Source: Agathobaculum sp.
GTDB taxonomy: Bacteria; Bacillota; Clostridia; Oscillospirales; Butyricicoccaceae
Direction: 5' to 3'
Assembly (NCBI RefSeq): GCF_022775115.1
Contig: NZ_JALFLA010000010.1
Location: 1 to 51,618, forward strand
Length of the DNA: 51,618 nt
Below are positions 23,087 to 31,773 of the stretch, piece after piece. The first letter of the stretch is position 1. Each line of letters begins with the position of its first letter. The position numbers and the translations under genes were made by a program. Under the pieces are notes generated by a model. It ran no database searches and was not told the DNA's origin. It worked only from the letters and a program-made list of their open reading frames with translations.

Positions 23087-23659
23087 CTATTTTTTTGTTT
23101 TCCGCAGCAGGAGGGTCACAGCGGTGCAGCCGAGCACATAGCAGGCCGCGCCGGGCAGCGGAAATAGCAGATAAGCGCGCGCGGCAAGCGCTGTGGGCAG
23201 CCGCAGCCACAGCCATTCCCACAGGTGCGCGGGCACGAGCTGCACCGCCAGCGCAGCCAGCCGGGTCAGCGGCAGCGGTGCGACCAGCCACACGCCCACG
23301 CGCCAGAAGGCGCGGATAAAGTCTATGCCGGACTGCTTTAGTCTGCGCCCGCGCAGATATAGGCCAAAGCCCATGGCGAACGAAGCGGCGAGCAGCTGCA
23401 GCAACAGGCCGCACAGCGCGGGGAGCGCGCTGGCTGAAACAAAGCGGCCATACAACAGCAGTAGCAGTCCGGCGGCGCAGACACCGAGCAGGGCGCACAG
23501 TAGCATCGGCGCGATAGCCTCCGCCCGCGCGGACGAGGAGGGAGTGGCCACGCCGGCAGGCGCGGCCTGCGGCGCCACATCGCGCAGCAGCCAGTCGGTC
23601 GTCACGCCGAAGTGGTCGGCCAGCGCGACCACCTTGTCGATATCGGGCATGGCAGCACC
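23087..23659 (-). pseudogene. C-terminal part of an XRE-family membrane regulator, split by the integrated element
   Basis: The frame starts mid-way in a Cro/C1-type DNA-binding domain (GAAMPDIDKVVALADHFGV, then TTDWLLRDV), which is the end of the usual helix-turn-helix segment. About four hydrophobic helices follow, the layout of XRE regulators with a membrane tail. The first helices of the DNA-binding domain are missing here and lie 8 kb away at 31661-31773. The intact protein would be about 227 residues. An ATG at 23650 could still give a 187-residue product, but without a complete HTH. Confidence 0.88.
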
Positions 23660-23677
23660 GGAGTAACAAAGTTAAAG
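23658..23677. other. attL junction of the integrated element
   Basis: The crossover dinucleotide CC is at 23658-23659. Host sequence (the coding end of the XRE gene) lies to the left and element sequence starts at 23660. The element arm TTAAAG at 23672-23677 is exactly 12 bases from CC, mirroring CTTTAA at the other end. Confidence 0.8.
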
Positions 23678-23680
23678 AAG

Positions 23681-25294
23681 TCAATCAATCTTACCGACAA
23701 AGCGATAAATAATCTCTATTTCCTGTGTCCTGCTTCCGTCTGCCTCTTTTACCGCTTCATGGACAAGGATTTTTTCAATCAGTGTGTTTAATAGTTCAGC
23801 TGTCAGTTCGGACGGGTTAGAAAACTGTTTGATTAAATCAACCCATTTCCCTATGCCGTCCTCCTGCTCCTTTTCGCTGACAAGTTGAGCCGTTAACGCC
23901 TCTATCCGCTGTTCCTGTTCCTCCTGCTCCTGCTGGTACTTTTGGGACAGCATGGAGAAATTGCGCTCTGTGATTTTTCCGCTTACTCTGTCCTCGTATA
24001 ACTTGGCTAACAGGTTATCCAAATCGGAAAGCCGTTTTTCAGCCCGCTTTTTCTCCTGTGCGGCCCGCTTGCTTGCGGTGGCCTGTTCTGCAAGATTGGA
24101 CTTTGAAAGCCGCTGTATAATAGTCTGCTCGTCTTGGTGTACTGCTTTAATCCAGTATTGCAGACGGGAGAGGACAAAGTTATAAAGCACATCATAACGG
24201 ATATAGTGCATGGAACACTGTCTAAGGCCCTGCCCGTTCTTGCTACAATGGTAATAACTGTACGGGGCCTTTTTCCGCTGGTTTGTGGCGTAGGCCAGCG
24301 ACCACCCGCAATCCGCACATTTCACAAGCCCAGCGAAAATCTGCGTTGTTCCGTCCTTCTGCTTCCTGCGGCGGCTGGCGATCTGCTCTTGCACCCGGTC
24401 AAAATCGCTCTTGGATATAATCGCCTCGTGGGTGTTCTCCACTCTCCACCATTCTTCTTTTGGCTTGCGGATTTTCTTCTTGCACTTGAAAGATACATTG
24501 GTTTGCTTGTTGTGTACGCTGTTCCCGATGTAATTTTCATCCTGCAATATCTTTTTGACCTGTGCTATCGTCCATGCGTACCGTTTGCTCTCTGGCTGGC
24601 CCTCATAGACATGGGCAAACGTGCCGTATCTCTGGAAGTTCAGCCATGAGGGGGTGGGTATTTGTTCGCTTGCCAGTATGCGGGTTATCTTGGCCGCCCC
24701 CACCCCTTGCACCGCCAATGAAAAAATCTTTTCCACTATCCACCGGGTTTCCTCGTCTATCAGCAAATGTCCGGTTTGCTCTGGGTCTTTCCGATAGCCT
24801 AACGGGGCATAGGCTCCATAGTGCGCCCCGTTTTCAAACCGTGTCCGCATGGCCTTTGTCACCTTGCGGGAAATATCACGGGCATACCATTCATTTATCA
24901 CATTGAGGAACGGGGTAAACTCGCTGGATTGCTGGTTGATACTGTCCACACCGTTATCTATGGCGATATAGCGTACACCGTGGGCAGGGAAATACAACTC
25001 TATATACTGTCCGGTCAACAGGTAGTTGCGGCCCAGCCGTGAAAGGTCTTTTGTCACCACACAGTTTATCCGCTTCGCCTCTATATCCTCTATCATACGT
25101 TGAAAATCCGGGCGGTCAAAGTTCGTCCCACTATACCCATCGTCTATATATTCATCTACTACGAAAAGCCCGTTTTGCTCTGCATAGCGTCGTAGCATCA
25201 TGCGTTGTGTACTGATGGAATTACTTTCCCCGGCGTTTTCATCATCACGGCTCAAGCGGAGATAAAGAGCGGTGTTATATATGGGCTGTTTCAT
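23681..25294 (-). CDS. Large serine recombinase (site-specific integrase/excisionase)
   Basis: The 537-residue protein should cut attP and attB at a central dinucleotide and rejoin them. Residues 1-150 form the resolvase domain with the nucleophile S15 (YLRLSRDD) and the SRLGRN arginine region near 80. The recombinase domain follows (GYAPLGYRKDP-like segment), then a zinc ribbon near 323-355 (CADCG, YHCSKNG) and a coiled coil near 395-470. The start at 25294 has GGAGG six bases upstream. Its 3' end lies about 20 bases from attL, the usual place for an integrase. Confidence 0.95.
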   Translation of the reverse strand: MKQPIYNTALYLRLSRDDENAGESNSISTQRMMLRRYAEQNGLFVVDEYIDDGYSGTNFDRPDFQRMIEDIEAKRINCVVTKDLSRLGRNYLLTGQYIELYFPAHGVRYIAIDNGVDSINQQSSEFTPFLNVINEWYARDISRKVTKAMRTRFENGAHYGAYAPLGYRKDPEQTGHLLIDEETRWIVEKIFSLAVQGVGAAKITRILASEQIPTPSWLNFQRYGTFAHVYEGQPESKRYAWTIAQVKKILQDENYIGNSVHNKQTNVSFKCKKKIRKPKEEWWRVENTHEAIISKSDFDRVQEQIASRRRKQKDGTTQIFAGLVKCADCGWSLAYATNQRKKAPYSYYHCSKNGQGLRQCSMHYIRYDVLYNFVLSRLQYWIKAVHQDEQTIIQRLSKSNLAEQATASKRAAQEKKRAEKRLSDLDNLLAKLYEDRVSGKITERNFSMLSQKYQQEQEEQEQRIEALTAQLVSEKEQEDGIGKWVDLIKQFSNPSELTAELLNTLIEKILVHEAVKEADGSRTQEIEIIYRFVGKID

Positions 25295-25318
25295 AAAAAT
25301 CCTCCTTCCAAGAAACAG

Positions 25319-25374
25319 CCCCCGCACTTGTGGGTACACTTCCTAACAAGGATATTTTACCACAAATGCGGGGG
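25319..25374. repeat. 15-base inverted repeat upstream of the recombinase gene
   Basis: The arms at 25319-25333 (CCCCCGCACTTGTGG) and 25360-25374 match at 14 of 15 positions and enclose 26 bases. The loop contains TCCT..AGGA around AACA. It lies in the recombinase leader, so it could be an attenuator or operator; a role as a nicking site is possible but not shown. Confidence 0.6.
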
Positions 25375-25406
25375 ATTTTCAATATTTTAAGACGATTTTG
25401 ATGTAT

Positions 25407-25586
25407 TTATCGCACCTTTTCTTTGATTTTATTTGTTACAAATTCTGCTATAAGTTCATCCATTTGCTTCCCAGCGGCGGGAAAATGTTCCGTTATTTTT
25501 ATTCGTATATTGTTCAAAATGAAGTATTCTTGTCCATCTTTCTTTATCGTCTTGCCCCGTACCCCTTCCGGGGTGGGCTGGTTCAT
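25407..25586 (-). CDS. 59-residue TnpW-like accessory protein
   Basis: An ATG on the minus strand at 25586 follows AAGGGGG and opens a 59-residue frame: MNQPTPEGVRGKTIKKDGQ, then EYFILNNIRIKITEHFPAAG and a helical, Lys-rich end. The beta-strand pair followed by a GK and a helix recalls the small TnpW family of transposon proteins, usually of unknown function. It is placed between Rep and recombinase in the same direction. The family link is from memory and tentative; that the frame is coding is fairly sure. Confidence 0.65.
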   Translation of the reverse strand: MNQPTPEGVRGKTIKKDGQEYFILNNIRIKITEHFPAAGKQMDELIAEFVTNKIKEKVR

Positions 25587-30922: not shown

Positions 30923-31033
30923 AAAGTACCCTCCGTAATAAATAAATGGATTTTCTACATTTTAGCATGAACCTAAAAAAATAACAAGCAATTTATCTGC
31001 CAATAGCACACATACTTTGCTGACACTGGCGGG

Positions 31034-31271
31034 TATAATTTTTACGGTGATTACTTAGATGGGACGTTCCGGTTTTGACAATGAAATATTTTTCGATACG
31101 ATACGGAAAAATATTAAAAAATATCGGGCGCAACAGGGTTTGACTGCCGCCCAACTTTCAGAAAAGGCTGGGCTTGGACATGACTATTTGCGGCAAATCG
31201 AAAGTGAGAAAGACCGGCATCATGTTTCATTGGTGTCGCTTTATAAAATTTCAATGGCGTTAAGGCGTTAG
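31034..31271 (+). CDS. Small XRE-family repressor, 70 residues, with -10 box
   Basis: The coding part is 31059-31271 (ATG start); the span given also includes a TATAAT at 31034-31039 without a good -35. The protein is one Cro/C1-type helix-turn-helix (KNIKKYRAQQGLTAAQLSEK, then HDYLRQIESEKDR and SLVSLYKISMALRR). It is the only clear plus-strand gene of the element and reads away from the rest, as expected for an element repressor. The ribosome site is weak. Confidence 0.8.
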
Positions 31272-31310
31272 CATGGATGATTTGGTAACGCAACAAGATA
31301 ATCAATAACT

Positions 31311-31344
31311 GGCTGGTGATCTAAAAGACCACCAGCCTTTTTAT
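31311..31344 (+). terminator. Terminator after the small XRE gene
   Basis: GGCTGGTGATC at 31311-31321 pairs with GACCACCAGCC at 31327-31337 (one mismatch), followed by TTTTT. Confidence 0.85.
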
Positions 31345-31642
31345 TGTTGACAAGGCGGTGTGTGTAGGACGGAGCCGAGGAAGCCGCCGACGTGCGTACC
31401 TCTGGCGTAAAATGAAGGCGAGAGGAACGGCGGGAATAAGGTTTGGTACGGGCCATCGAAAATCCTTTGGATTTTCTGCGCCCTCTGATGCCCTGCGGGG
31501 CATAGGATTTTGAATGGTGTCGGGGCAGCTGGTGAATACGAAAAAGCAGGGGGCCGGGGGCCTCCTGCTTTTCATGTACTCGCTTCTTACTCCGGGCGGC
31601 TGTTAGTAAAGTGTATGTGGGGGGCTGTCCTTGTTTCCGTAT
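31345..31642. other. Non-coding right end of the element with inverted repeats
   Basis: No convincing gene is seen in these 298 bases; open frames on both strands lack ribosome sites and family matches. Two stems stand out: GAAAATCC/GGATTTTC at 31458-31476, and AAAAGCAGG/CCTGCTTTT at 31542-31572 with a GGGCC-rich inside, which could terminate transcription from both sides near attR. Confidence 0.5.
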
Positions 31643-31662
31643 CTTTAAGTATGGGAAAGCCC
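31643..31662. other. attR junction of the integrated element
   Basis: The element arm CTTTAA at 31643-31648 lies 12 bases from the crossover dinucleotide CC at 31661-31662. Host XRE coding sequence begins to the right. Confidence 0.8.
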
Positions 31663-31773
31663 AAGCTCCCATTTGCTCACCGCCTGACGGGATACTCCCA
31701 GTGTGATGGCCAGATCCTCCTGTGACAGTCCACCGGCCTTGCGTAGAGAGCTGATTTTTTCTCCGAGTGTCAT
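31661..31773 (-). pseudogene. N-terminal part of the XRE-family regulator split by the element
   Basis: A minus-strand ATG at 31773, behind AAGGAGGT, opens MTLGEKISSLRKAGGLSQ, then EDLAITLGVSRQAVSKWELG, the first four helices of a Cro/C1 DNA-binding domain. Past the junction the frame runs into element sequence and stops at 31645 after a four-residue foreign tail (42 residues in all). Joined to 23659-23087 it gives KWELG followed by AAMPDIDKVV, the normal continuation for this family. The stub may still be translated as a partial DNA-binding peptide. Confidence 0.88.

Follow-up and report, generated by a model that had tools for sequence, protein, structure and literature searches.

A split XRE regulator gene in Agathobaculum sp. 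points to a serine integrase clade that probably targets one gene family at many sites

In a contig of Agathobaculum sp. (NZ_JALFLA010000010.1, positions 1 to 51,618; this whole stretch of 51,618 nucleotides is called the window here), two parts of one XRE-family regulator gene lie on the same strand and are separated by 8 kb of DNA that carries a gene for a large serine recombinase (LSR). The locus raises the question of why this gene was hit, and why at this codon. The analysis confirmed that a foreign element inserted into and disrupted one XRE gene. Moreover, comparison with relatives of the recombinase indicated that the element very probably targets the DNA encoding the helix-turn-helix of XRE/Cro regulators at the residues K-W-E-x-G, and not one unique gene, with a G-rich hexamer as a probable part of the sequence that is read. 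The parts of the locus on which the argument rests are the following (coordinates in the window, strand, feature, evidence).

31645..31773, minus strand: N-terminal XRE fragment of 42 residues, with 38 codons through the Gly of KWELG, then element-derived LSHT and a stop (sequence)
23087..23659, minus strand: C-terminal XRE part, an open frame with an ATG at 23650 (sequence and relatives)
23658..23659, no strand: attL core CC, on the gene strand GG, the first two bases of the Gly codon (sequence join and arm pairing)
31661..31662, no strand: attR core CC (sequence join and arm pairing)
23660..23677, no strand: attP arm at the recombinase end, GGAGTAACAAAGTTAAAG (sequence and arm pairing)
31643..31660, no strand: attP arm at the far end, CTTTAAGTATGGGAAAGC (sequence and arm pairing)

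The split gene lies on the minus strand; its N-half begins at 31773 with MTLGEKISSLRKAGGLSQEDLAITLGVSRQAVSKWELG, and its C-half terminates at 23087. These two positions are the limits of the split gene, and the element proper comprises 23660-31660 plus one copy of the core. When the 8003 bp between the two CC dinucleotides were excised in the sequence, one open XRE frame of 227 codons was obtained, in which the protein reads ...VSKWELG-AAMPDIDK... across the core and matches Pfam HTH_3 (1.4e-15). In the interrupted state, the element DNA past the CC/GG core at 31661-31662 supplies LSHT and a stop codon to the N-half. The joined ends of the element form an attP of the structure CTTTAA-N12-CC-N12-TTAAAG. 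An earlier note on this DNA had proposed the in-frame join at the CC cores, which agreed base for base over the 227 codons, and an attP with CTTTAA and TTAAAG 12 bases either side of CC, which was as described. The G+C content of the element is 45.7%, compared with 59.5% and 60.2% in the 10-kb flanks on each side, and a search for tRNA genes across the window found none.

Relatives of the split gene were sought in 60 genomes, including 24 other genomes of the same genus. An uninterrupted relative spanning the cut was present in 19 of these 24 (among the matches listed, E <= 1.5e-35); four of the 19 (G003, G004, G005 and G021) showed 42-45% identity and are possible paralogues. Among the matches listed for G008, G010 and G018, an uncut relative was not found. 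In the uncut loci that were fetched, the spacing KWExx-xxxPD/PE is kept with zero additional residues. At 15 intact loci the neighbours were also compared, and the HAD-type gene found at 31914-33155 of the window adjoins the gene in 14 and trmB in one. Because neighbours from the window adjoin the gene in all 15, these uncut loci are the element-free counterparts of the locus in the window, and the occurrence of uncut relatives in 19 of 24 congeners together with this shared neighbourhood shows that the split is not due to chance. The check suggested with the earlier note thus gave intact genes in related genomes without the element, in the same neighbourhood, and not two separate parts; its claim that integration disrupts an XRE regulator was upheld, together with the boundaries and the dinucleotide core.

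In the congener G023, a related element interrupts the orthologous gene at the same GG and thus in the same codon. The N-half, with the same neighbours as in the window, continues into GGAGTTTCACATAATTAAAG on one contig, and a second contig carries a recombinase end (81% identical to that of the window, 31 residues) followed by CTTTAAGTATGTGATACC and the C-half. In G014, the contig stops 8 bases beyond the core on letters that resemble the arms of other elements, which is suggestive of a further insertion at this codon. That the orthologous gene was struck in the genome of the window and again in G023 would suit an enzyme for which this XRE gene is the sole natural site, the other XRE cases then being due to unrelated enzyme specificities. 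Single-site integration of this kind is very unlikely, and two cases already contradict it: the LSR of an element in Pseudoflavonifractor (L029) is 92% identical to that of the window, and yet the two elements occupy different XRE genes; and in the genome G078 two XRE genes each contain an element, the two elements being 99.97% identical over 6420 bp. It is also at odds with the window's own genome, where a different element interrupts a second XRE gene at this codon, close to the end of contig C56. Only the contig end of this second insertion (L186) is present, namely its first ~400 bases (pattern site G000:C56:382-395), and the element end is similar to the L163 end (71% over 293 bases). Furthermore, the elements of G008 and of a Subdoligranulum variabile plasmid are 97.9% identical over 8479 bp and lie in different XRE genes; because of this pair and the G078 pair, one enzyme type serves several XRE genes and hosts.

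The sites used by relatives of the LSR were then compared across named genome contigs, plasmids, and family, order and class samples of 87, 394 and 391 genomes, respectively. Target sites were read from the sequence behind the recombinase stop, and the far ends were located by core identity and arm symmetry alone, blind to gene content. The arm-pair test covered 85 listed rows, in which overlapping loci of one element were counted apart and many had too little upstream DNA, and arm pairs of <= 10/18 were discarded as chance. The test yielded an arm pair of >= 11/18 in 25 of the 85 rows, and in 19 of these 25, window included, XRE halves flank both sides. The recombinase gene is oriented as in the window in 16 of the 19 (window included) and flipped in three (L031, L032 and L174). 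The other six paired rows were L158 (the L083 element), L071, L090, L177, L171 (in tnpV) and L172 (in a recombinase gene). The elements in XRE genes range from 4.1 kb (L169, with a broken LSR) to 17.2 kb, and all 10 N-halves submitted to Pfam matched HTH_3. The core is mostly GG on a Gly codon; four rows (L033, L035, L086 and L181) have GA instead, in a codon for Asp or Glu, and of these L086 and L181 come from one genome. A regular expression for XRE C-halves additionally flagged L094, L095, L096 and L106. These were rejected, since the translations of L094 and L095 are recombinase genes and that of L096 is tnpV, and the poor arm of L106 (CTATAA) was taken as chance. Among 40 rows below 45% identity no further XRE C-half was flagged by this expression, which detects CTTTAA-like arms only; L087 and L092, whose arms are not CTTTAA-like, were labelled XRE by eye.

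A tree of 69 LSRs, with target labels assigned by the authors from the site readings and arm pairing, placed these enzymes in a 43-member clade (support 95/98). Thirty-five of its members have XRE sites (both gene halves were seen for 19, the C-half alone for 16), and these sites share one codon in different genes, the Gly (sometimes Asp/Glu) of K-W-E-x-G. The XRE label required 8 changes on the tree, compared with a shuffled mean of 23.3, and none of 500 shuffles was as low. Near neighbours outside the clade lie in tnpV (L096; PF14198, 4.8e-45), an RHS-core gene (L084; NCBIfam TIGR03696, 8.6e-15, with no match in Pfam) and a recombinase gene (L104). With L171 in tnpV and L094 and L095 in serine-recombinase genes, these insertions are possibly other conserved-motif targets. 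The distant LSRs L115 and L118 (41% identity) may end in RHS-like coding sequence with a presumed motif of the PxxYxDPSGH type; a Pfam scan of the short L115 piece gave no match.

The DNA shared by these sites was examined in 21 N-halves (the 19 paired elements, G023 and G014) and in the C-halves of 32 of the 37 XRE rows of the tree. The hexamer RTGGGA, made by the K-W-E codons, occurs at -10 to -5 from the core in 20 of the 21 N-halves, and CC at +11,+12, from a Pro codon, occurs in all 32 C-halves. The 32 distinct attP half-sites show a corresponding pattern, with G in 32, G/T in 31, G in 30 and A in 32 at columns -8 to -5, and A at -10 in 24. Moreover, at two sites outside XRE genes, L034 (in a lipoprotein-like open reading frame, ORF) and L071, GTGGGA stands correctly placed on the opposite strand, and these insertions look as if the hexamer, and not the gene, had been seen. 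At L071 (16504-16594), the element, on a Lactobacillus amylovorus plasmid, adjoins a 30-base repeat with a second copy 61 bases on, a CRISPR-like spacing, and such a repeat, as a mimic of the half-site, may have served this related LSR as its target.

These data suggest the following mechanism. The LSR would join attP to attB across the GG core (CC on the plus strand), attB being XRE/Cro-family helix-turn-helix DNA that is cut in the Gly (sometimes Asp/Glu) codon of K-W-E-x-G. The attP half-sites would present, at -10 to -5 relative to the core, a conserved hexamer rich in G, to which RTGGGA from the K-W-E codons would correspond at an equal distance on one side of attB, with the Pro-codon CC at +11,+12 on the other. 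To judge from these alignments, the hexamer, that is, the codons of a conserved protein motif, is probably what the enzyme reads. A single codon encodes Trp, and two encode each of Lys and Glu. Because of these few codons and the conservation of the protein, K-W-E DNA is expected to be almost invariant from paralogue to paralogue and between species, and the enzyme would therefore find sites in many hosts. The XRE gene of the window would then have been hit because of the motif that it encodes. On balance, we also lean towards the broader proposal that the LSR clade adopted an att half-site matching the invariant K-W-E-x-G DNA of XRE genes, which made a regulator family that is among the commonest in Bacillota an attachment site present in many copies and across genera, and that its neighbours on the tree do likewise with TnpV, RHS core and recombinase genes.

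Several observations weigh against targeting through the K-W-E codons. RTGGGA is missing from the N-half of L156, which encodes N-Y-E, so that some variation in the hexamer must be possible. Of the 43 clade members, eight lie off XRE genes (L094 and L095 in recombinase genes; L034, L071, L083, L090, L179 and L180 elsewhere), and two XRE sites (L049 and L092) fall among the 26 rows outside the clade. The XRE label is strongly clustered, yet its 8 changes do not amount to one clean gain. The pattern AARTGGGAN4GG was searched in three genomes picked for holding elements, with occupancy judged by eye, and showed no enrichment (counts of 3, 9 and 13, compared with 6, 9 and 9 for the reversed control). 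Seventeen of its 25 sites lie outside XRE frames, and none of the 17 looks occupied; more than the hexamer must therefore be read. Finally, since conservation of K-W-E is expected in any XRE gene, the shared hexamer is a correlation.

The same test bears on the possibility of relaxed specificity, according to which the core and a short loose motif suffice, and XRE genes are struck often as they are numerous and dispensable. The 60 genomes contain 1 to 26 XRE-like matches each (E <= 0.001), some relatives are located outside XRE genes, and LSRs with DUF4368 are described as multi-targeting in the available text of Durrant et al. 2022 (PMC10083194), all of which would accord with such an enzyme. 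A loose motif, however, would not place 35 of 43 members in one codon of one family. Moreover, eight of the 25 pattern sites lie in an XRE frame, and six of these eight look occupied (five with certainty), against none of the 17 elsewhere (Fisher p 1.6e-4, or 1.1e-3 with the five certain sites), a contrast that is indicative only, as it comes from three element-holding genomes. Relaxed specificity is thus an unlikely explanation, and the targeting of the K-W-E-x-G DNA of XRE genes was preferred.

Insertion at K-W-E-x-G makes the N-fragment terminate a few codons past the Gly, where the attP arm supplies a stop, and leaves the C-terminal frame open, and precise excision would therefore restore the gene. 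Such excision is predicted. The earlier note went further and proposed that excision could act as a switch on this regulator, that is, the element would leave under some condition and restore the gene to the benefit of host or element. The precise, in-frame join and the open C-half agree with this idea, as does the Tn4451 enzyme, which excises without a directionality factor according to the available part of a review (PMC5704250). Different XRE genes are struck in different hosts, though, and the insertion is missing from most congeners. Family scans recognised no directionality factor among the element ORFs, and the entry of the enzyme's relatives into many different XRE genes argues against a dedicated switch on this one. 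The switch was therefore not sustained and is considered extremely unlikely.

The gene content of the insert is given below in the same manner as above.

23681..25339, minus strand: LSR, 552 residues as listed (Pfam Resolvase, Recombinase, Zn_ribbon_recom and DUF4368, all above cut-offs)
25681..26484, minus strand: Rep protein of 267 residues, candidate replication initiator or relaxase (Pfam REP_ORF2-G2P, 8.5e-11; PHROGs rolling-circle initiation, 1.5e-9)
26635..27774, minus strand: FtsK/SpoIIIE-type ATPase of 379 residues, candidate TcpA-like coupling protein (Pfam, 1.6e-16; PHROGs, 6e-48)
27832..28272, minus strand: ORF of 146 residues (no family match in Pfam, NCBIfam and PHROGs scans)
28262..28510, minus strand: ORF of 82 residues (no family match in the same scans)
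28605..28961, minus strand: DUF1413 protein, candidate mobilization accessory (Pfam DUF1413, 4.6e-10; NikA-like at 23.7 bits, under the cut-off of 27)
29171..30922, minus strand: cargo protein of 583 residues with RCC1 repeats and two S-layer-homology (SLH) domains (family scan; 51% homologue in the L029 element)
31059..31271, plus strand: element HTH_3 regulator of 70 residues (family scan; 81% homologue in the L029 element)

The LSR may in fact start at the ATG of MKQPIYN, residue 16 of the listed frame. The L029 element of Pseudoflavonifractor shares five of these proteins, with identities of 92% for the LSR, 83% for Rep, 64% for FtsK, 51% for the RCC1-SLH protein and 81% for the HTH regulator. 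Its own integrase with a defined attL and attR and the Rep and FtsK-like matches mark the insert as a putative integrative mobilizable element (IME), which would be mobilized by conjugation; mating-pore families had no match among the eight scanned element ORFs, of which two match nothing. Membership of the LSR in the staphylococcal cassette (Ccr) recombinases was rejected, as the NCBIfam cut-offs exceed the scores obtained (CcrB 117 bits vs 900, CcrC 82 vs 900 and CcrA 79 vs 700). In searches with the LSR, IMG/VR gave two pattern matches and no relative, and a phage collection gave one record of 66% identity, the others among the matches listed being <= 43%. The window's genome contains many serine-recombinase genes (a search with the LSR gave 19 matches at E <= 0.001), and those other than the window's LSR have <= 38% identity or are short (best 49% over 61 residues).

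With good confidence, it can be stated that a gene-family-specific, multi-site integrase clade emerges from the finding of one split gene. This would replace "relaxed specificity", for one multi-targeting clade, by a testable rule in which a protein motif is read through low-degeneracy codons. If true, the rule would account for the use of one integrase family by elements in many genera, carriers of resistance genes included; insertion sites would become predictable from protein annotation, and genome engineering would gain a clade whose natural landing sites can be predicted as a set. Elements of this kind may have left footprints in gut Bacillota in the form of some truncated XRE regulators. 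Aminoglycoside-resistance genes are annotated on the related elements L071, L073 and L074 (aadE; ant(9) in L071).

LSRs with DUF4368 that are multi-targeting have already been published, and so has an IME that has a serine integrase and lies in an XRE gene. The following comparisons refer to the portions of the cited sources that were available. In Streptococcus suis, an IME with a serine integrase lies within an HTH_XRE gene, and there the HTH_XRE site is one integration specificity among 13, without a codon or family rule (PMC7168690). The element also resembles IMEs with a rolling-circle replication (RCR)-type relaxase and a TcpA coupling protein in its Rep-type candidate relaxase, FtsK-like protein and single integrase, except that Rep here matches REP_ORF2-G2P and the relaxase class of the review is PHA00330 (PMC5704250). 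An XRE target was not found in the available texts on C. difficile element sites, FirmiData or a streptococcal survey. Codon-level XRE targeting by an LSR clade was likewise not stated in the literature searched, with supplements and most subscription papers outside the search, and the novelty of such targeting is not proven. Tropism for a gene family is also known from IME_Rho_tet, which favours MAFF2 genes (PMC12904643), and from HE-PICIs, which use late genes of prophages and whose integrase subclades follow 14 sites (PMC10111431). MTI_1737 shares with the present sites a GG core, an A/G-rich 5' side and a C-rich 3' side, and it has 17 natural sites, with two copies in one genome; its specificity was described as relaxed, with target genes unnamed in the source text (PMC13137831), and our guess is that it belongs to the XRE-targeting clade. 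The closest comparison is with the DUF4368 (TndX-like) LSRs, which Durrant et al. 2022 defined as a multi-targeting clade and excluded from the Pfam enrichment of target genes (PMC10083194). The domain set is the same, related enzymes enter several genes, and the core is 2 bp. For those enzymes, relaxed specificity and/or recurrent sequence motifs were proposed (PMC10083194), whereas the sites described here lie in one protein family and at one codon.

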